NCBI GenBank assembly: GCA_021463145.1
Contig: JAJTWZ010000002.1
Coordinates: 1-64,000 of the forward strand
Length of the DNA: 64,000 bases
Origin: Blastocatellia bacterium
GTDB taxonomy: Bacteria > Acidobacteriota > Blastocatellia > UBA7656 > JADIYM01
Direction of reading: 5' to 3'
Shown: piece after piece, positions 1,302-44,694 of the stretch
How positions within the stretch are numbered: position 1 is the first letter of the stretch
Layout of the letters: each line of letters opens with the position of its first letter
Position numbers and translations under genes: made by a program
The notes under the pieces: model-generated
The model's input: only the letters and a program-made list of their open reading frames with translations
Told to the model about the DNA's origin: nothing
Database searches by the model: none

Positions 1302-3839
1302 TCAGAAGCGCACCTTCGCGCCGCCGTACGCCGTCGCACCAGGCAATCGCACGCCGTTCTCGAGGATCTCCGTGTCCGTGAAGTTCTCTACCCGCCCGAA
1401 GAGCGAAACAGTCACACGGTCCGACACCGGAATGTCGTAGATCGCCGAGACGTTCGCCCGCGCGTACCCGTCGAATGTGAAGCGGCGGGACGAGAAGTAC
1501 ACCGACTCGAACAGCTGGGCGTCGTGCTCAGATTGTGCAAGCACGTCGAACGCGAGCGACAGCTTGCCAATCCGCTGTGTCGCCTGCAGCGAGAACGTGT
1601 GCCTGGGTATAGCCGTAGTGCGAACGCTCTGACCTCCGCGTATCGAAGTACCGTCCGCAAGCACGATCGTCGACGGCAGCCGTGTGTCGGACGCGACGAA
1701 CGTGTAAGCGCCGCGCACGTCGAGCGAGCGGATCGGCGACACGGCGGCCGATACCTCGACGCCGCGCGACAGCCCGCCCGATGTGTTCACGTAACCTCCG
1801 AAGCGTCCGAGTCCGAGCGGATCGTCGCTTGCGAACGTCACGGGGTTGAAGAAGCTGGCGAAATCGATCTGCCGCTGCAGCTTCGTGTAGAAGTAGGTTG
1901 CACCGAACCTCGCGCGATCGTCGAACAGCGCCTGCTCGACACCGCCGTCCACCGTCAGCGAGATCTCGGGCTTCAGCGTCGGGTCGCCCGTTCTAACCAG
2001 GCCGTTGCCCACCAGGTTCGCGTCGCCGACGTTCGAGAACCGCTCGTAAAGCGACGGGGCGCGGAAACTGTTGCCGGCGTGCGCCCAGATGCGCGTGCCC
2101 GTGGATGCGAACCTGTACGCGATCGAACCGTCGCCGGTGAATGCGCTCTTCTCGTCGAATCCACCAAGAAACGCCGGAACGGTCTGCTGCCGCGAGTCGT
2201 CTGGCTCACTCTGGTTCGAAGTGCCGAAATACGCTTCGGTGTCGCCAACACGGAAGCCCTGCCACCGCGCTCCGAGTCCGATCTGAAGGCGTCCGTCCAG
2301 TAGCGCTATCTGGTCGAAAACGAACGCCGCGTAGGTCCACTGCCGGTCGCGCGACGCGTCGTTGACACCGTCGAAATCGTAGTCGAAGCCGAACTCGTTG
2401 AACGGCTGCCGCGAACTGCCGAACGGGCCCGGGAAATCCTGCCGGAACTGCTCTCGCTCCACTTCTGCTCCTGCCGTCAGCACGTTCGAGGTGCCCAACA
2501 GGAACCGGCTCCTGAAATCGAACGTGTGGACCGACCCGCGATACCACGCATTGCCGAGCCCGCTCACGTCCGGCTTTCCGTCCTGATCGTAGTCGAACGT
2601 GAGCGGCGCAACTTCGGCGTAGTAATCGGGGTCCGAGTCCGGTCCGAATCCGAAGAACTTCTCGGTCGTCGAGCCCGCGTAGCGGGCCGTGTAACTGAAG
2701 ACGTCGTTTACGTCGTGATGGAATCGGAGCGAACCCTGGAAGTAGTCAGAATCGCGCACGTCGTCCGGATCGTTCGGCGCGTCGGCGAAGACGACAGGCG
2801 CCGGCGGAAAGACCGATCCGCCGGCGGTCGCCGGCCTGAAGAACGGGTTGCCGTTCAGGTCGAGACGCGAATCGTCGTATGCAAGATTCCCGGACAGCTC
2901 CATCCGGTCCGTGAAGCGATATGCCGCGCGGCCGGAGATCGTCGAGTTTCGATACTCGTCGTCGCCATCCACGCCGTTCGTGACGTTCTGCTGATCGAAG
3001 CCGAAGCTGAAGTCGGCGCGATCGTTTCCACCGGTGGATCCGAAATGGCCGCGAAACGTCCCAAGCGATCCTCCCTCGGCCCAGAGCTCGAAGCGGGGAG
3101 CCCCTGCGCCGCGCAGCGGTATTACGTTCACGACGCCGCCGACGGCGTGCGAGCCGTACAGCGTCGAGCCCGCGCCGCGGACGACTTCGACGCGGTCGAC
3201 GTTCGTCAGCGTCAGGTCCTCGTAGAAACCGAGGAACGAGCCATTGATATCGGACGCGTCTCGAATCCGAAGACCGTCGACCAGCACGGACGTGTCCTGG
3301 GACCGCAACCCGCGGAACCGGATCGCCGTGAGGGATCCCGGCCCGCCCTGCCGCTGGATTCGAAGACCTGCAACGCCGGTCAGCGCTTCCGGCAGGGCGC
3401 GCGCACCGCGCACGTCGGCGTCGGCGGCCGTCACGACGTCGACGGACCGCGTCACTTCGTCTCGCGACTGCGGCAAGCCGGAGGCCGTTACCGTGACCTC
3501 TTCGGCTACTGCCGCGACGGCGAGCGGGACGTCGACGACTACCGCTCCGTCGCGCACTTCGACTCGTTCGCGGGTCGCCGTGCGGAATCCGGGCGCCGAG
3601 ACTTCGACCAGGTAATCGCCTGGAGGTACGGCATCGATTTCGTATTCGCCTTCTCGGCCGGTGCGAGCGCGGCGGTCGGTGCCCGCGGATGAAACGAGGC
3701 GGACGGTCGCGCCAGCGACGCGCGCACCAGCGCTGTCGGTAACGGTGCCCGTAACGCGAGCGCCGCCGGCCGCCAGTGCAGCGGGAACGGCGCCCGTCAC
3801 GAGGACGATGGCGACCAGGATTCGTGCAAGGGTGTTCAT
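1302..3839 (-). CDS. TonB-dependent outer-membrane receptor, probable cobalamin receptor (BtuB-like)
   Basis: An 845-residue outer-membrane protein. Residues 1-23 form a signal peptide ending ALA. Residues ~27-105 form a carboxypeptidase-regulatory-like beta-sandwich ('VTGTVTDSAGARVAGATV'), then a plug domain at ~115-225 ('SVLVDGLRI', 'VEVVRGAGSTLYGSHAVGG') and a beta-barrel ending in Phe, the usual BAM-recognised terminus. Its ATG overlaps the stop of the ATPase gene by 4 nt, and the operon begins with a cobalamin riboswitch, so cobalamin or a corrinoid is the likely ligand. The extra N-terminal regulatory-like domain is common in Acidobacteriota and Bacteroidota receptors and absent from E. 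coli BtuB. Transport would be energised by a TonB-ExbBD complex such as the one at 62-64 kb. Confidence 0.9.
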   Translation of the reverse strand: MNTLARILVAIVLVTGAVPAALAAGGARVTGTVTDSAGARVAGATVRLVSSAGTDRRARTGREGEYEIDAVPPGDYLVEVSAPGFRTATRERVEVRDGAVVVDVPLAVAAVAEEVTVTASGLPQSRDEVTRSVDVVTAADADVRGARALPEALTGVAGLRIQRQGGPGSLTAIRFRGLRSQDTSVLVDGLRIRDASDINGSFLGFYEDLTLTNVDRVEVVRGAGSTLYGSHAVGGVVNVIPLRGAGAPRFELWAEGGSLGTFRGHFGSTGGNDRADFSFGFDQQNVTNGVDGDDEYRNSTISGRAAYRFTDRMELSGNLAYDDSRLDLNGNPFFRPATAGGSVFPPAPVVFADAPNDPDDVRDSDYFQGSLRFHHDVNDVFSYTARYAGSTTEKFFGFGPDSDPDYYAEVAPLTFDYDQDGKPDVSGLGNAWYRGSVHTFDFRSRFLLGTSNVLTAGAEVEREQFRQDFPGPFGSSRQPFNEFGFDYDFDGVNDASRDRQWTYAAFVFDQIALLDGRLQIGLGARWQGFRVGDTEAYFGTSNQSEPDDSRQQTVPAFLGGFDEKSAFTGDGSIAYRFASTGTRIWAHAGNSFRAPSLYERFSNVGDANLVGNGLVRTGDPTLKPEISLTVDGGVEQALFDDRARFGATYFYTKLQRQIDFASFFNPVTFASDDPLGLGRFGGYVNTSGGLSRGVEVSAAVSPIRSLDVRGAYTFVASDTRLPSTIVLADGTSIRGGQSVRTTAIPRHTFSLQATQRIGKLSLAFDVLAQSEHDAQLFESVYFSSRRFTFDGYARANVSAIYDIPVSDRVTVSLFGRVENFTDTEILENGVRLPGATAYGGAKVRF

Positions 3840-4663
3840 GAAGTGGTTTCTCCGATGGATTTGGGTGACCGGGTTCCGCGCAGATCGGTCCCGGCAACTA
3901 CGGTGATTCGCGGCGCCCCGGTGACGGGGTTCGCGTCTACCAGAACGGGGACTCCGAACACTGACTCGATGCGTTCGGGCGTCAGAACCTCGGCGGGGGT
4001 GCCGGTGCCTGCAATCCGTCCGTCCGAAAGCAGGATCAGGCGGTCGGCGAACTCGGCGGCCAGGTTCAGGTCGTGAGTAACGACGGCGACGGCCATTCGC
4101 CGTTCGCGGGCAAGCCGTCTTACAAGGGCCAGGATGCGGATCTGGTGCGCGATGTCGAGGTTCGCCGTCGGCTCGTCGAGCAGCAGGACGCGCGGCTCCT
4201 GTGCAAGGGCTCGGGCGACCGTGACTCGCTGGCGCTCCCCGCCCGACAATTCGTCGAGGTGGCGCGCGGCGAAGTCTCCGGCGCCGGTGAGCTCGAGCGC
4301 GCGCGTGGCGGCGTGGACGTCGGCGTCGGTCTCGAAGCCGAGGAGGTGTCCGCGGGCGAAGCGTCCCTGCAGCACGTACTCGAGCACCGTGAGGGGAAAG
4401 TGGAATTCGGCGGACTGCGCGACGAAGCCGACGGCGCGCGCGACCTCGAGTCGAGACATCTCGTGGATACCGCGGTCGCCGAGCAGCACTCGCCCGCACT
4501 TTGGCGTGAGCAATCCGTCCAACAGCGCGACGAGCGTCGACTTGCCCGATCCGTTCGGTCCGGCTATTGCCAGGACTTCGCCCTCGCACAACTCGACCGA
4601 GACGTCACGGAGTACCGGCTCGCCGTTCCCGTAGCCAAATGACACCTGTTCGGCGCGAATCAC
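3836..4663 (-). CDS. btuD: ABC transporter ATP-binding protein (BtuD/FecE type)
   Basis: A 275-residue ATPase that drives import through the neighbouring permease. Walker A 'GPNGSGKST' is at residues 35-43; the Q-loop region ('VGFVAQSAEF'), ABC signature 'LSGGERQRV', Walker B 'VLLLDEPTANLD' and H-loop 'VTHDLN' all follow in order and look intact. The GTG start at 4663 is chosen because a ggaggt Shine-Dalgarno lies just upstream and the start overlaps the permease stop by 4 nt. The 3' end overlaps the receptor start by 4 nt. The fold is shared by heme, siderophore and B12 importers; the riboswitch upstream favours B12. Confidence 0.92.
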   Translation of the reverse strand: MIRAEQVSFGYGNGEPVLRDVSVELCEGEVLAIAGPNGSGKSTLVALLDGLLTPKCGRVLLGDRGIHEMSRLEVARAVGFVAQSAEFHFPLTVLEYVLQGRFARGHLLGFETDADVHAATRALELTGAGDFAARHLDELSGGERQRVTVARALAQEPRVLLLDEPTANLDIAHQIRILALVRRLARERRMAVAVVTHDLNLAAEFADRLILLSDGRIAGTGTPAEVLTPERIESVFGVPVLVDANPVTGAPRITVVAGTDLRGTRSPKSIGETTS

Positions 4664-5676
4664 CAGGACCTCCGCAGCAGGTAGACGAAGACGGGCGCGC
4701 CGATGAGCGCCGTCACGACGCCGATGTGGATCTCGCGAGGCGCAAAGAGCGTGCGCGAGAGCGTGTCGCCGAGCGCGAGAAACGCGGCGCCGACGAGCGC
4801 CGACGCCGGCACGACGAGCCGGTTGTCGCTGCCGACGACGAGCCGCACCGCGTGCGGGATCACGAGTCCGACGAATCCGATCATGCCGCTCACGGCGACC
4901 GACGCCGCGGTGATCATCGAGGCGGCGCAGTAGACGACGACCTTCACGCGCCGCGTGGCGACGCCGAGGGCGCGGGCATCGCGTTCGCCGAGCATGAGCA
5001 GGTTCATGCTCCGGGCGCAGAGCGCGATCGCCGTCCCGCCGGCGAGTGTGACGAGCGCAATGGGCCAGAGAGCATCGGACGATCCCGAGAGGTCGCCGAT
5101 GAGCCACGAGTAGATTCCGCGCAGTCCGGCCTCGGACGTCAGCGTCATCAGAAAGATGATGGCCGAACTGAGGAACGCGTTCACGATGACGCCGGCGAGG
5201 ATTAGCCGCTCTGTGGGTGCGCCCTCCCTGCCTTCCCCAATGGCATAGACGACGACGATCGTGACGAGCGCGCCGGCGAACGCCGACATCGTGCGACCCG
5301 TGGCCGCCGCGGCGAAAACGACCGCCGAGAGCACGGCGCCGAGCGCCGCGCCGCTCGAAACGCCGAGGATGTAGGGCTCGGCGAGCGGATTGCGAAGGAG
5401 CGCCTGGAACGCGGAGCCGGCGACGGAGAGAGACGCGCCGACGACGAGCGCTAGCGCGAGTCGCGGCAGCCGCACGTCGAAGACGATGGCCGAATGCTCG
5501 GGCGAAAGTGGCGACGTGCCTCCGCTCGCTCGCGCCCACATCGCGGCGAGGATGTCACCGACCGGCACGCGCTCGCTTCCGAATGCGAGCGAGACGCCGC
5601 ACGCGATCGCGAGCACGATCACGAGCACGGCGAGGACGGTCACCAGCCGTCCCGACGTGAGGTATCCGGGTCTCAC
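4660..5676 (-). CDS. btuC: iron-chelate/cobalamin ABC permease (BtuC/FecCD family)
   Basis: A 338-residue inner-membrane permease with about ten hydrophobic segments and the FecCD-family landmarks 'RLPRLALALVVGASL', 'GSAFQALLRNPLAEPYILG' and 'MIGFVGLVIPHAVR'. It forms the dimeric channel through which the substrate passes from the periplasmic binding protein. The GTG start at 5676 overlaps the TGA of the binding-protein gene (GTGA), indicating translational coupling. The gene ends 'YLLRRSW' and overlaps the ATPase start by 4 nt. Cobalamin specificity is inferred from the riboswitch and operon. Confidence 0.92.
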   Translation of the reverse strand: MRPGYLTSGRLVTVLAVLVIVLAIACGVSLAFGSERVPVGDILAAMWARASGGTSPLSPEHSAIVFDVRLPRLALALVVGASLSVAGSAFQALLRNPLAEPYILGVSSGAALGAVLSAVVFAAAATGRTMSAFAGALVTIVVVYAIGEGREGAPTERLILAGVIVNAFLSSAIIFLMTLTSEAGLRGIYSWLIGDLSGSSDALWPIALVTLAGGTAIALCARSMNLLMLGERDARALGVATRRVKVVVYCAASMITAASVAVSGMIGFVGLVIPHAVRLVVGSDNRLVVPASALVGAAFLALGDTLSRTLFAPREIHIGVVTALIGAPVFVYLLRRSW

Positions 5677-6833
5677 CGATACGCCTCGGGATGGAGCGCC
5701 TTCGCAAGCTGTTCGAGGCCGTCGACGAGACGCGGACCGGGCCGCATGAGAAGGTCGCCGTCGATCTTTACGATCCGGCCGTTGCGGACGGCGGGGGTCG
5801 CCGCAATCGACTTCGGGACGCCGCTGTCCTGTGCCGCGAAGCCGTGCGTGACGAGCGGCACGAGGATGACGTCGGGCGCTTTCGCGATGACGGCTTCGGC
5901 GCTGTACTGCGGCCACTCGGTCGTCTCGTCGGCAGTTATCGACGCGCCGCCCGCGAGCCGGATGAGGTCGTCGAGGAACGTACCTTTGCCACTCGTGAAG
6001 AGTGGTTCGTTGCCGACGATTGCGAAGACTTTCGGGGCCGGGCGGCCGGCGATCGTAGCGCGGACCGACTCGATGCGGGCGCGCAGCGTGGTGGTGAGGG
6101 CCGTCGCTGCGTCGGTATCGCCGGTGGCGACGCCGATGCGTTCGATCGAGGTGAGGACGCCGTCGACGCCCTTCGCGGCGGTGACGACGACGGGGACGCC
6201 GAGGGCGCCGAGCCGCTCAGAGATCGACTCGAGCTGGCTCGCGGTCGAGACGAGGACGAGGTCGGGTTTCAGGGCAAGGATGCGTTCGACGTCGGGCTTC
6301 TGGGTGTCGCCGATTTTGTTCGTGTTCGCCGCTTCGGGGGGAAAGGTGCAGTAGGACGTCGTTGCGATGACTCGCGGTCCCGCGCCGATGGCGAAGAGGA
6401 TTTCGGTAATGCTCGGCGCGAGCGAGACGATGCGCTCGGGGCGCGCGACGACGTGTACGCTACGGCCGAGGTCGTCGACGACGTTGCGGGTCGCGGCGGC
6501 GCCAGTTCCAGTCGCCCCGATGCCGTCTTGTGCGACCGTGCCACCGGGAGCGGGACGCCCTTCAGACGCGGCGTTTCCCGTCGGCGGCGCAGGCCGTGCG
6601 CACGCCACTGCGAACGCGCACAGCACCAGCAGTGTGACCGCCCCGAGGAACCGGCTACGTCGCGCAACGGTATCGGTACCGCGAGCGTCAGCGAGCGGGT
6701 CGCCGCCCGGTCGCGCAACATGATCGGTACCGCGAGAGTCAGCGAGCGGGTCGCCGCCCGGTCGCGCATCGGGATCTGTACCGCGAGCGACAGCGAGCGG
6801 GTTGTTTGCCGGCCGTGAGGCGTGAATGGACAT
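5673..6833 (-). CDS. btuF: cobalamin-binding periplasmic lipoprotein (BtuF-like) with repeat-encoded N-terminal extension
   Basis: First gene of the B12 operon; a 386-residue substrate-binding protein of the BtuF/FepB clan ('RIVSLAPSITEILFAIGAG', 'KPDLVLV'). A hydrophobic segment ending 'LCAFAVAC' with Cys78 as probable lipidated residue marks a lipoprotein signal, but about 60 residues precede it. Those residues are mostly encoded by in-frame 51-bp DNA repeats (PGGDPLADxRGTD units). The start is uncertain: ATG at 6833 is given here, a GTG at 6848 is in the same frame, and neither has a good Shine-Dalgarno. No in-frame ATG/GTG/TTG lies between the repeats and the signal sequence. The binding domain itself looks complete. 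It captures corrinoid in the periplasm and hands it to BtuC. Confidence 0.85.
   Translation of the reverse strand: MSIHASRPANNPLAVARGTDPDARPGGDPLADSRGTDHVARPGGDPLADARGTDTVARRSRFLGAVTLLVLCAFAVACARPAPPTGNAASEGRPAPGGTVAQDGIGATGTGAAATRNVVDDLGRSVHVVARPERIVSLAPSITEILFAIGAGPRVIATTSYCTFPPEAANTNKIGDTQKPDVERILALKPDLVLVSTASQLESISERLGALGVPVVVTAAKGVDGVLTSIERIGVATGDTDAATALTTTLRARIESVRATIAGRPAPKVFAIVGNEPLFTSGKGTFLDDLIRLAGGASITADETTEWPQYSAEAVIAKAPDVILVPLVTHGFAAQDSGVPKSIAATPAVRNGRIVKIDGDLLMRPGPRLVDGLEQLAKALHPEAYR
6661..6802. repeat. 51-bp tandem repeats inside the 5' end of btuF
   Basis: Unit starts at 6674 and 6725 are full 51-bp copies; a third partial copy begins at 6776 and a fragment of another lies at 6661-6673. 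The core reads 'taccgcgagcgtcagcgagc' with small variations. Because 51 is a multiple of three, each unit adds 17 codons to the btuF frame without disrupting it. The unit resembles GC-rich dispersed repeats I associate with Acidobacteriota genomes; that recollection is not checked here. Confidence 0.85.
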
Positions 6834-6949
6834 TGAAGCGTGCTGCACCTGATATCGGGCGCGCGCACGACCGGTCCACCCGAGTCAGCCTCGGTTGCCG
6901 TTCCGAGCATCGCACCCTCATCCGTCGAAGGGTGGATTGCATTACTCGA

Positions 6950-7065
6950 TCGAGGCAGGTCTCCTGGCTTCGTCCGCTAAGGACGTTACAGTGGCGGGAC
7001 CGCGCGGGACTTGCACCCGCTTCCCTATTCTTCCGTGCATTGACTGCATCGCACGGACACCTCGA
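6950..7065 (-). ncRNA. adenosylcobalamin riboswitch
   Basis: Read on the minus strand, the segment carries the conserved core of the cobalamin riboswitch: 'GGGAA' followed by 'GGGTGCAAGTCCC', then 'GCGCGGTCCCGCCACTGT' (B12 box region), and finally 'AGCCAGGAGACCTGCC'. The closing helix P1 can be drawn between 7060-7065 and 6950-6955 (TCGAGG/CCTCGA). It lies about 100-115 nt upstream of btuF, leaving room for an expression platform with small hairpins. AdoCbl binding would be expected to shut off the uptake operon. Confidence 0.95.
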
Positions 7066-7170
7066 ACGACTAGAACTCGAAAGAACGACTCCGGAAACCG
7101 GACGGGCGACCGTAGCACTGCCGACTTCGGCCGTCAACATGAGAGAACTCTACCGATGAACAAAGATCGA

Positions 7171-39987: not shown

Positions 39988-41628
39988 TTACCTCAGGAAT
40001 GGAATTCGCCAGTTCTTCGCTGCCGGCCTGGGAAGCGCGGGCGTGTCTTTGAAAGGGAGGTCCACCATGATTGGACAGTGGTCGGAAATTCTGTGCTGCC
40101 CGGCATAATTCAATCGAGTCAGCGTCTGGCCGTGGTGCGGCGCGAATCGATACGACATTTCCTGCCCTCCCGATGGGGCGGGCGGCTTCACGAAGATCCA
40201 GTCCAGCTTCAGTTTGCCCGTCGGCCCGTATGTCTTCTCGAGTTTGAATGTCGATGCAAATCCCTTCGACGCACGCTCGTTGGAATTCGCCAGCGTGCCC
40301 GAGCGGCCGTTTATCGTGCGCTCCGAGTCGCCGCGAAAATCGAACCGGCCGCCGTCGGCGAAGCGGAAATCCTCGAGAGTCTCGAAGAACCGGGCTTCCT
40401 GGTTCTCCGCGAAGATCGGAAAACTGCGGACCGTCGGATCACGATACTTCCTGAAGTATCCATAGAGGCTGACTGGCGCCGTCACGGCCAGTCCGACACC
40501 CGTCGCCGCCTTGATCCCTTCTTTCGCCCAGAAGGACGCCGATCCGAGCCGCTTCGTGATCTCGCGCTTGATCGACGTCGGCGTCGAGTCGCTCGACGAC
40601 GTATTCATGTCGCCGGCGAGGATTACCGGGTTCGAGACGTTGCGTATCGCCACGAGGATCTCCTCGAGTTGGGCCAGGCGAACCTGCGGCTCGCACCGCG
40701 CCTCGAGGTGCGCGGCAACGACGGTCGCACGGCCGTCCGGAATGAGCGGGTCGGCAATATCGGCGATCATGAACATCCGGTTGCCGCGGCGCACCTCGCG
40801 CGTGACTTTTTCTAGAAATGCGAGCTCGCTCGCTTTTCTTTTTCCTGCCTCGAGCTCGCTTACTCCGGCCTTTTCGCCGGCGTACCAGTCGTGGCCCTGG
40901 TTCCTGAACCTGACGACGCGGACGTTCTCGAGAGGGTAGCGGCTCAGAATCGCCGTGCCGTGCATGCCCTTCATCCGCCGCCGGTCGACACGCGGCAGGT
41001 TGGCGACGAGTTCTTCCCGTTTCGCCGGGTCGGCAACTGCTTCGAACGTCTCGGTGCCCATCGTGAGCGGATCGACCTCGACGAACTCGACGCCAAACGC
41101 CCAGTTCATCTTCAGTTCCGCTGCAAGATCCCTGGCTACGTTGCGGTAGCCGGACCGTGCCACGCCCCAGTCACATTCGTTGAGGACGATTACGTCCGCG
41201 GCCCGGAGTTGTGCGACCTCTCGCGAGAGAGCTGCCCGTTCGGCGGTTCCGCGTGGAAACTCGGCGCTGTCGATGAACGTCTCGAAACCGGCGAGCCCTC
41301 GAAATGCGCCAGCAATGGCCTGGTATTCGATTCCCCGTTCGATGTTCCACATCGCCACGCGAAGACCGCGGCCGAGCGCGCCCAGCTCGGGCTTGACCGG
41401 CTTCGTGCCGGCCGCCGTGGCCGAGTTGTCGACGAATGCCGTTTCGAGCAAGCTATCGAGCTTCTTTGCGAGCTCAGCGGATGGCGGATCGACGGCGTAG
41501 AGGCTTTCGAGTTCGTCGAAATCGAGCAGGGAGGCCTCGAGCCGGGCCGATGTCGAGTTTGCCGGGAGAATTGCCGCGATCAGGACGAAGGCCAGATGTC
41601 GAGGCAAATTCGAAATCGTACGATGCAT
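39988..41628 (-). CDS. exported endonuclease/exonuclease/phosphatase-family protein
   Basis: A 546-residue exported protein of the EEP (DNase I-like) superfamily. Motifs in order: 'LRVAMWNIERG' (metal-site Asn/Glu), 'DVIVLNECDWG', 'GTAILSRYPL', 'ATVVAAHLEARC', 'VILAGDMNTSS' (Asp-x-Asn), and C-terminal 'RISDHCPIMVDL' (Ser-Asp-His). The catalytic set looks complete. It likely hydrolyses phosphodiesters or phosphomonoesters outside the cytosol. The ATG at 41628 is chosen over a start 19 codons upstream because of an agga ribosome site and a clean signal peptide. The M20 gene follows after 3 nt. Confidence 0.9.
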   Translation of the reverse strand: MHRTISNLPRHLAFVLIAAILPANSTSARLEASLLDFDELESLYAVDPPSAELAKKLDSLLETAFVDNSATAAGTKPVKPELGALGRGLRVAMWNIERGIEYQAIAGAFRGLAGFETFIDSAEFPRGTAERAALSREVAQLRAADVIVLNECDWGVARSGYRNVARDLAAELKMNWAFGVEFVEVDPLTMGTETFEAVADPAKREELVANLPRVDRRRMKGMHGTAILSRYPLENVRVVRFRNQGHDWYAGEKAGVSELEAGKRKASELAFLEKVTREVRRGNRMFMIADIADPLIPDGRATVVAAHLEARCEPQVRLAQLEEILVAIRNVSNPVILAGDMNTSSSDSTPTSIKREITKRLGSASFWAKEGIKAATGVGLAVTAPVSLYGYFRKYRDPTVRSFPIFAENQEARFFETLEDFRFADGGRFDFRGDSERTINGRSGTLANSNERASKGFASTFKLEKTYGPTGKLKLDWIFVKPPAPSGGQEMSYRFAPHHGQTLTRLNYAGQHRISDHCPIMVDLPFKDTPALPRPAAKNWRIPFLR

Positions 41629-41789
41629 GAATATTCCTGAAGATCCGGACTGCGCAGACTCGAGAACGGAATCCTCTCGACACAAGCGGGTTCGCCGACT
41701 CTAGCACACGCGATCCCAGGTCGCGCGTTGACAGAGCGTCGAACGCGAGTACCATTCGTTCGGCCGCGGCCGCTTGCAGGGCGCGGATG

Positions 41790-41925
41790 ATCCAGTCTGC
41801 CGAGTCCGGGGCGAGGCCGCACCGGAACGGGGGAACCACTTCTGGGGTGAATCCGGCAACGTGATGACCAGAGCCGGTAGGGCACTTTCAAACCCGAACC
41901 CGACAGCTAACCTCGTAGGCTTGTT
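41790..41925 (+). ncRNA. c-di-AMP riboswitch (ydaO-yuaA type)
   Basis: The segment carries the conserved blocks of the ydaO-yuaA RNA in the right order and spacing: 'TGCCGAGTCCGGGG' (from 41798), 'CGGGGGAACCA', 'GGGGTGAATCCGG', and the highly diagnostic 3' block 'CCCGACAGCTAACCTCGTAGGC' region (41899-41920). The class binds cyclic di-AMP and turns off genes for potassium uptake, osmolyte transport and cell-wall remodelling. It sits ~80 nt upstream of an APC-superfamily permease on the same strand. Boundaries are approximate. Confidence 0.9.
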
Positions 41926-41947
41926 GAAAGGACTCGCGATCTGGTTC

Positions 41948-41983
41948 ACGAAGCCAGAGCGCACGACCCTGAAAGTCGGGTCG
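41948..41983 (+). promoter_or_regulatory. possible expression platform of the c-di-AMP riboswitch
   Basis: Just after the aptamer, a hairpin CGACCC (41964-41969)/GGGTCG (41978-41983) with an 8-nt loop can form, and a second small stem precedes it (TCTGG/CCAGA near 41940-41957). No T-run follows, so control by translation or Rho is more likely than intrinsic termination. A candidate ribosome site (aaggga, 41985-41990) follows immediately. Confidence 0.45.
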
Positions 41984-42001
41984 CAAGGGACGTGAATCAC
42001 A

Positions 42002-43966
42002 TTGAGATCGCGCTCGAACAGGCGTAACCGCTTCACAGTACGACCCATCCGGTCGCCGTTTCGCGACTGGTTGCTTGCAGGCTCGAGCCAGAGCCCCGAG
42101 GCGACGATTTCGCATCACGGACATCGTCATCCGACGCACCCGTGGTGGAAGGTCATGTGCCTCACCGGCGTCGACTATTTCTCGACGCTCGGTTACCAGC
42201 CTGGAATCGCATTTCTCGCTGCCGGGGTACTGGCGCCCATTGCGACAATTGTGCTCGTTGCGCTGACCCTGTTCGGCGCTTTACCTATCTACAAGCGCGT
42301 TGCTGCGGCAAGTCCGAACGGCGAAGGCAGCATTGCAATGCTCGAGAGCCTGCTCACCCGTTGGAAGGGAAAGGCGTTCGTGCTCATACTGCTCGGCTTC
42401 GCCGCGACCGACTTCGTCATCACGATGACGCTCTCGGCGGCCGACGCAACTGCCCACATCGTCGAAAATCCGTACGTGCCGCATGGGATCAGCGAACATC
42501 CCGTGCTCGTGACCGCCGCACTGCTGCTCGTTCTCGGCGCCATATTCCTGAAGGGTTTCAAGGAGGCCATCGGTCTCGCTGTCGTGCTCGTTGCAATTTA
42601 CCTCGGTTTGAACGTCCTGGTCCTCGCTCGTAGCCTGTTCGAGATCGCGACACACCCCGACCTCATTGCAAACTGGAGGGCCGCCCTTACCGCGGGAGAA
42701 TCGCACGGGAATCCGGCGATGATTGCCCTGGCCGCCCTGCTGGTGTTTCCCAAGCTGGCCCTTGGACTATCCGGCTTCGAGACTGGCGTCGCCGTCATGC
42801 CCCTCGTGAAGGGCGATCCTCTCGACACGAGCCAGAATCCGGCCGGCCGGATCAGAAACTCGAAGCTGATGCTGCAGACGGCGGCCATAATCATGAGCGT
42901 CGCACTGATCGGCAGCAGCTTTGCAACGACGATCCTCATTCCGGCAGACGAGTTCAAGGAAGGCGGGGGGGCGTACGGCCGCGCCCTTGCTTTTCTCTGC
43001 CACAAGTTTTTCGGTGACGTCGTCGGGACGGCCTATGATGTCAGCACTATTGCCATTCTCTGGTTCGCCGGCGCTTCGGCGATGGCTGGCCTGCTGAGCC
43101 TCATTCCAAGATACCTTCCCCGATACGGGATGGCGCCTGAATGGGCGCGCGCCGTGCGGCCGCTCGTCCTCGTGCTCACGTCCGTGTCACTGGCCGTGAC
43201 GTGGATCTTCGACGCCAATGTCGAGGCCCAGGGCGGCGCATATGCCACCGGCGTGCTCGTACTGATGACCTCGGCCGCGTTAGCGGTGACGCTGCTGCTG
43301 TGGAAGCACGGAGGATGGCCGAGAATCGCCTTCGTTCTCATCACCCTCGTATTCGTCTACACGACCCTCGACAACGTTCACGCGAGGCCGGACGGCGTGA
43401 AGATCGCGCTCGTCTTCATTGGATCCATCGTCGTCGCGTCGTTCGTGTCGCGAGTGGTGCGTTCGACCGAATTGCGCGTCACGAAGGTCTTACTCGATGA
43501 CGAAGCACAGCGATTCGTCGAGGAATCGCGAAGCCGCACCATTCGGATCGTCGCGAACCGGCCGGACCGCGGCCTTGAAGCCGAATACCGCAAGAAGGAG
43601 AGGGGCGCGCGCCAGGACCACCACATTCCACCCGGCGAACCGATCATCATCCTCGAGGTGACGCCTGGTGACGCTTCGGAGTTCACGGACGAGCTCGAGG
43701 TAACCGGCGTGCGGGTGGGTCCGTATCGCATCCTCAGGTGCGAGAGTCCGGCGATTCCGAACGCGATTGCGGCCCTGCTGATCCACATTCGCGACATGAC
43801 CGGCAATCTTCCGCACGTGTATTTCGGGTGGACGGAGGGCAACCCGATTGCCTACGTGCTCAAGTTCATCGCATTCGGCGAAGGCGATACCGCGCCCGTT
43901 ACCCGCGAAGTGCTTCGGCAGACGATCGACGAGCCCAGCCAGCGGCCTCGCGTGCACGTTGGGTAA
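42002..43966 (+). CDS. APC-superfamily permease, probable KimA-like potassium transporter
   Basis: About 654 residues: a ~50-residue cytoplasmic N-tail, ~12 transmembrane helices (~55-475) beginning '[19 protein letters not shown]', then a ~160-residue soluble C-terminal domain. By sequence it is an APC-type cation/amino-acid transporter. The c-di-AMP riboswitch directly upstream shifts the best guess to K+ uptake, because that riboswitch class commonly controls potassium transporters such as KimA (YdaO). The start is uncertain: TTG 42002 has a weak aaggga site, TTG 42071 and ATG 42155 are alternatives, the last cutting the conserved '[11 protein letters not shown]'. A small membrane-protein gene follows after 2 nt. 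Confidence 0.83.
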
Positions 43967-43968
43967 CA

Positions 43969-44694
43969 ATGACGGCGCAAGCGGAAGGTGAGTTTCTTAC
44001 TTCGGAGCTCCGGCCATTGGAGTTGCTGGCCGAAGGCTGGCGGACAGTGCGCCCCCAGTACGGCCTCCTGCTCGCCGTCACCGTTGCCGGATTGATCATC
44101 GGAAGCCTGGCTCCGCTCGGGCTCCTGATGGGACCGATGGTGTGCGGAATCTACGTGGGACTGTTTGCGCGCTTGAGAGGGGAGCGCGCCACGTTTCAGC
44201 AACTGTTCAGCGGCTTCGAATTCTTCGCGCCGAGTTTCATTGCGACGCTCATCCAGATAGTGCCGATCATGGCGATGGCCATCCCGGTCAACCTGGTCCT
44301 GATGCTCTTCTCAATGAAAAGGCTCCTGGTCTGGCTCGGGCGACCCTACAGCGACCTGGCAAACTATCTGGGCCCCCTGGAGATGACGCTCGTCGTCGTG
44401 TTCGCGACCCTCGTAATCTTCCTGTTGAGCGTCTTCTTCGGGACTTTCTTCATGTTCGGGTATCCGCTCATCGTCGATCGCCGAATGGGCGGCTGGGATG
44501 CGGTAAAGCTCAGCGCCCGGGCGTCGAAGGCCAACTTCGGAGGCGCGGCGCGATTGATGGCGGCCACTACGATCGTCAGCATCGTTGCTTCGCTCTTCTG
44601 TTACGTGGGCGGCTTCCTTGTTACTCCGATTACGCTCGCGGCGTGGGCCATCGCTTATCGGCGTGTGTTTCCGGAGACTTTGCGAGAGAATTGA
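43969..44694 (+). CDS. multipass membrane protein of unknown function
   Basis: A 241-residue protein with about five to six hydrophobic helices (e.g. 'LLLAVTVAGLIIGSLAPLGL', 'LVVVFATLVIFLLSVFFGTF', 'TIVSIVASLFCYVGGFLV'). It resembles integral-membrane DUF families with a 'GGWDAVKLSARASKANF' cytoplasmic segment between helix pairs. No catalytic motif. Only 2 nt separate it from the riboswitch-controlled permease, so it is probably under the same c-di-AMP control and may assist that transporter (inference). Confidence 0.8.
   Translation: MTAQAEGEFLTSELRPLELLAEGWRTVRPQYGLLLAVTVAGLIIGSLAPLGLLMGPMVCGIYVGLFARLRGERATFQQLFSGFEFFAPSFIATLIQIVPIMAMAIPVNLVLMLFSMKRLLVWLGRPYSDLANYLGPLEMTLVVVFATLVIFLLSVFFGTFFMFGYPLIVDRRMGGWDAVKLSARASKANFGGAARLMAATTIVSIVASLFCYVGGFLVTPITLAAWAIAYRRVFPETLREN

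Follow-up and report, generated by a model that had tools for sequence, protein, structure and literature searches.

A c-di-AMP riboswitch, a permease gene and a gene for a small membrane protein follow one another on the forward strand of the stretch of DNA analysed here (64,000 nt from a Blastocatellia bacterium, hereafter the window). The aptamer of the riboswitch (ydaO/yuaA leader, RF00379) occupies 41788-41935 (+), where cmscan gave a full-length match (model positions 1-134) of 87 bits with an E-value of 6.4e-19, the gathering score of the family being 38 bits; CAGCTAACCTCGTAGGC is contained in this match, which is the only one to RF00379 in the whole 5.28-Mb genome. Judged by the match, 41788-41935 is certainly a genuine c-di-AMP riboswitch. 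It is located directly 5' of the permease, as an earlier note on this DNA had claimed, since the permease ORF (42002-43966, +; 654 aa, TTG start, TAA stop) begins 67 nt 3' of the aptamer. The second ORF, which encodes a multipass membrane protein of 241 aa according to its hydropathy (43969-44694, +), has its ATG at 43969, i.e. 2 nt after the permease TAA. On the 5' side of the riboswitch, a consensus scan found one sigma-70-type promoter-like site (TTGACA-N16-TACCAT, 41728-41755, +) against a chance expectation of 0.2 for the region, which by itself is no evidence of function, and the divergent neighbour (39988-41685, -) encodes an endonuclease/exonuclease/phosphatase-fold protein (PF03372).

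The leader between aptamer and start codon (41936-42001, +), i.e. the expression platform, folds into hairpins at 41936-41962 and 41964-41983, followed by a Shine-Dalgarno-like AAGGGA (41985-41990), and the terminator scan detected no intrinsic terminator in it. Because the leaders of related riboswitch-permease pairs (L131, L135 and L100) do have terminator-like hairpins followed by T-runs, as read by eye from the folds, translational control is proposed for the window. CGCGATCT (41935-41942) could pair with AGATCGCG (42005-42012), which follows closely on the start codon, but a complementarity of 8 bp was reached by 40 out of 2000 shuffles, which puts sequestration of the start codon weakly above chance. 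That the riboswitch acts at translation is therefore a guess, for which the leader pairing provides a weak hint. Compared to the known ydaO/yuaA riboswitch, the element is the same in terms of its full covariance-model match, whereas it differs in having no intrinsic terminator and in preceding a gene family for which no description was found. The ydaO/yuaA riboswitch senses c-di-AMP and importers are usually repressed by it; besides K+ uptake, osmolyte uptake is under c-di-AMP control as well. A diadenylate cyclase, which such a leader calls for and which the earlier note had singled out as something to look for, is indeed encoded once in the genome (CdaA type, with DAC and CdaA_N domains), from which it follows that the genome makes the riboswitch ligand; a PgpH-type phosphodiesterase is encoded too.

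The permease did not match any Pfam or NCBIfam family at E ≤ 1, neither AA_permease_2 (PF13520) nor K_trans (PF02705, Kup) being found in it, and phmmer and hmmsearch searches against PDB sequences did not return a match either. Relatives are present in 48 of the 297 sampled genomes of the phylum and, beyond Acidobacteriota, in Streptomyces, cyanobacteria, Deinococcota and others. Their database names are 'amino acid transporter' or 'APC family permease', which agrees with the earlier expectation that this gene would normally be annotated as an amino-acid transporter. AA_permease_2 is matched at E ≤ 0.1 by only 3 of 57 relatives (best E 1.2e-10). A description of the family as a K+ transporter was not found in the open-access papers searched.

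More can be said on the basis of the predicted structure. An AlphaFold model of the permease was built from 57 sequences (pLDDT 86.7), and the best three PDB fold matches of this model found by Foldseek are all KimA (E 1.9e-13 to 2.2e-10), followed by cation-chloride cotransporters, amino-acid carriers including ApcT, and cationic amino-acid transporters. Identity between the model and KimA is ~15%, and the two differ in how their domains are placed, which results in a large whole-chain rmsd. In KimA, K+ is coordinated by D36, Y43, T230 and Y377 (PMC10284832), while D117 and E233 are also needed (PMC6994465). D58, Y65 and Y414 of the permease align with D36, Y43 and Y377 of KimA and are conserved without exception in two sets of relatives (26 and 57 sequences), and D137 aligns with D117, this position being occupied by S in some members. 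In TM6, the permease sequence S257-G-F-E260 resembles T230-G-V-E233 of KimA (in which E233 is the coupling residue), and both proteins have a proline seven residues after the glutamate (E+7). The equivalence of S257/E260 to T230/E233 is suggestive only, as automatic aligners, hhalign included, place the motif 3-9 residues off and the assignment rests on reading the motif. The cytosolic C-terminal domain (approximately residues 490-654), when modelled alone (pLDDT 87), matched no PDB fold at E ≤ 0.001, and KimA was not among the 50 matches listed. A KimA-type PPAT-like c-di-AMP-binding domain in the C-terminus was considered and rejected for want of a fold match. KimA-style inhibition by bound c-di-AMP is therefore not to be assumed, and direct control of the permease protein by c-di-AMP is unsupported by the model.

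The genomic surroundings of the family were analysed as well. KdpA/B/C/D, Kup or KimA is encoded within 2.5 kb at 20 of 109 permease-family loci (Acidobacteriota, Actinomycetota), the Streptomyces cases among them not being independent, and by our own estimate the chance rate of such a K+ neighbour for a random gene is well under 1%. Relatives in three phyla have kdp, kup, kimA or trkH genes as neighbours. In one genome (G251) the permease is the last gene of the same-strand run kdpA-kdpB-kdpC-histidine kinase-KdpD-permease, in others it is flanked by a two-component pair on one side and kdpA on the other (G105), adjoins kup (G157), or is located ahead of a two-component pair and kimA (G197), and in Deinococcus deserti trkH starts 6 nt 3' of the permease-family gene. 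Several of the family loci examined have no K+ gene nearby. The riboswitch is found directly 5' of a family member at five loci (the window, L100, L131, L135 and the second copy in L137). Five changes are needed to place these pairings on a 63-sequence tree, and well-supported branches force at least four of them, so the pairing of riboswitch and permease has been gained or lost repeatedly. The linkage is confined to Acidobacteriota, none of the Streptomyces, cyanobacterial and Deinococcota loci scanned having the riboswitch.

With respect to other K+ uptake genes, KimA, Kup and TrkH (Trk/Ktr) were all searched for and found absent from the genome to which the window belongs, which does have KdpA and KdpB; the permease (if it imports K+) and Kdp would then be its sole recognised K+ uptake systems. 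In a sample of 68 acidobacterial genomes, 48 with and 20 without the permease family, Trk/Ktr or Kup is present in 7 of the former versus 16 of the latter (Fisher 4.6e-7), and at the genus level in 4 of 29 with versus 15 of 19 without the family (p 1e-5), an association that is partly confounded by phylogeny, even at genus level. For Kdp the numbers are 24 of 48 versus 2 of 20. An exchange is also visible inside one taxonomic family of the same class, where G227 has Trk and no permease, and G267 and G283 the reverse. In ten genomes, including three Chloracidobacterium-like ones of two contigs each, the permease family is present while none of Trk, Kup, Kdp and KimA was matched. Since 2 of the 20 control genomes without the permease family also lack all four importers, absence alone is no proof of function.

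K+ uptake is essential, and the bacterial K+ importers are thought to form a short closed list. From the fold, the residue conservation, the neighbourhood and the gene distribution we infer that K+ is the substrate of the permease. The protein would then be a secondary importer of this ion that has the same LeuT/APC fold as KimA and Kup and is presumably driven by protons, probably in K+/H+ symport. As riboswitches of this class normally act, c-di-AMP would switch the permease gene off, i.e. the riboswitch would lower permease expression at a high level of c-di-AMP, which implies high cellular K+ or turgor. The protein would belong to a family of its own, to date annotated 'amino acid transporter / APC family permease'. 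We hold this explanation as a whole (a riboswitch-repressed secondary K+ importer of a separate unnamed family) to be likely, and it is similarly likely that the family is its own, so far unnamed and apparently undescribed K+ importer family. Somewhat less firmly, though still as the better bet, it seems that this family stands as a new one beside Trk/Ktr, Kup, KimA and Kdp, occurs in several phyla under a wrong name, provides the sole K+ uptake of some Acidobacteriota (the Chloracidobacterium-like ones), and has repeatedly come under the control of a c-di-AMP-sensing RNA. If so, thousands of entries from soil bacteria, Streptomyces, Nostoc and Deinococcus would be wrongly annotated as 'amino acid transporter', lineages seemingly without K+ uptake would be explained, and c-di-AMP would control a K+ importer seemingly through its RNA and not through the protein.

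It could be argued that the permease is simply a diverged KimA orthologue. The two share the riboswitch in front, an APC fold of ~12 TM segments with a cytosolic domain, and the ligand positions D36, Y43 and Y377; moreover, KimA is the closest relative in the profile comparison (P = 4.5e-12 over 354 columns, a distant relationship) as well as by fold. However, true KimA in this phylum is a different gene. The KimA of L068 matches 6s3k at E 4e-153 (phmmer), whereas the permease family gives no such match and its cytosolic domain does not find that of KimA (6s3k and 8b70 are both KimA (YdaO), the c-di-AMP-controlled K+/H+ symporter of Bacillus subtilis). The two even adjoin in L068, L103, L129 and L140, with the order permease family, riboswitch, KimA, which makes them two separate genes coexisting in the same genomes. 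In the phylum, the riboswitch most often precedes another permease group, and it is this group that contains true KimA. Orthology to KimA is therefore very improbable. Of the KimA-like K+ importer put forward in the earlier note, the likeness in fold holds and the role in K+ import is well supported by indirect lines (neighbourhood, residues and gene absence), while the implied orthology had to be given up. Kup (PF02705) has in common with the permease the D-x6-Y in TM1, the T/S-G-x-E motif in TM6 and the K+ context, and adjoins the family in L135 and L214, but there is no profile match between them (P 0.11) and the permease lacks the GD-I-GTSPLY motif. The profile comparison with the APC-USP permease group showed little relationship (P 0.0024).

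Import of an amino acid, or of some other compatible solute with uptake likewise held down by c-di-AMP, would agree with the database name, with the APC superfamily fold that the permease shares with amino-acid permeases (AA_permease_2; ApcT, AdiC), with the few relatives that match AA_permease_2, and with the presence of ApcT and cationic amino-acid transporters among the fold matches; osmolyte uptake under c-di-AMP control would fit too. We nevertheless regard it as unlikely, as the window protein itself matches no amino-acid permease and folds most like KimA, its K+-ligand residues in TM1 and TM10 are invariant, and the neighbours of the family are K+ uptake genes and their regulators rather than genes of amino-acid metabolism, with Trk/Kup being negatively associated. 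A K+-related role other than that of main importer, namely as a K+/cation sensor-transporter or an exporter that works with Kdp, Kup, KimA or Trk, is quite unlikely. Such a role would account for the frequent coexistence and adjoining positions of the permease and these importers, for the positive association with Kdp, and for a cytosolic domain without a solved relative. It is difficult to reconcile with the ten genomes in which no other recognised importer was matched, with a fold and residues that are those of an uptake symporter, and with c-di-AMP riboswitches usually repressing importers. A secondary K+ importer is the reading that we prefer.

The small gene downstream is likely co-transcribed with the permease because the gap between them is 2 nt. 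Its product is distantly related to BPSS1780/DUF975-type proteins (37.9 bits to NCBIfam BPSS1780, NF041043, which is below the cut-off of 90, and 24% to a DUF975 protein). The earlier description of a multipass protein 2 nt 3' of the permease is accurate. The suggestion that it is an accessory subunit is not borne out, in that tblastn (E ≤ 1e-3) gave no match to it beside the other permease-family loci searched, riboswitch-controlled ones included. As a conserved partner it was accordingly rejected, the two genes being adjacent only at the window locus among those searched.

Several other observations were made along the way. A short histidine kinase and a KdpE-like regulator travel as a pair with kdp, kup, kimA or the permease family, also without Kdp (L214:1981-3802, L217:9041-10945, L213:3215-5022 and L211:2335-4346), and likely constitute a shared K+ two-component system. 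Other targets of the c-di-AMP riboswitch in the phylum are an APC permease with a C-terminal USP-like part (L063, L093, L117, L121, L123), Kup (L104) and band-7/flotillin-like proteins (L065, L126). By reading, the riboswitch also precedes a sulfate-binding-protein-like gene in the two genomes of the window's order (L086 and L124, in G009 and G251) and a sulfite-oxidase-like gene in L067, so that a link between c-di-AMP and sulfur uptake is possible at these three loci.

At fourteen further loci (L064, L072, L073, L076, L079, L080, L085, L087, L088, L090, L091, L105, L109 and L114) the riboswitch lies ~220 nt 3' of a conserved membrane gene pair, presumably cytochrome oxidase subunit III-like and DUF420-like. 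In the ~150 nt 3' of these riboswitches, a conserved stretch (with the invariant GTCTTCTCAA) is followed by a strong terminator-like hairpin; there is no conserved same-strand gene 3' of them and an unrelated gene often faces them, which makes the element a candidate for a free-standing c-di-AMP-responsive RNA. Within the window, finally, a cobalamin riboswitch (6937-7079, -; 90 bits) precedes what reads as a set of B12 periplasmic-binding, permease, ATPase and TonB-dependent receptor-like genes (1302-6910, -).
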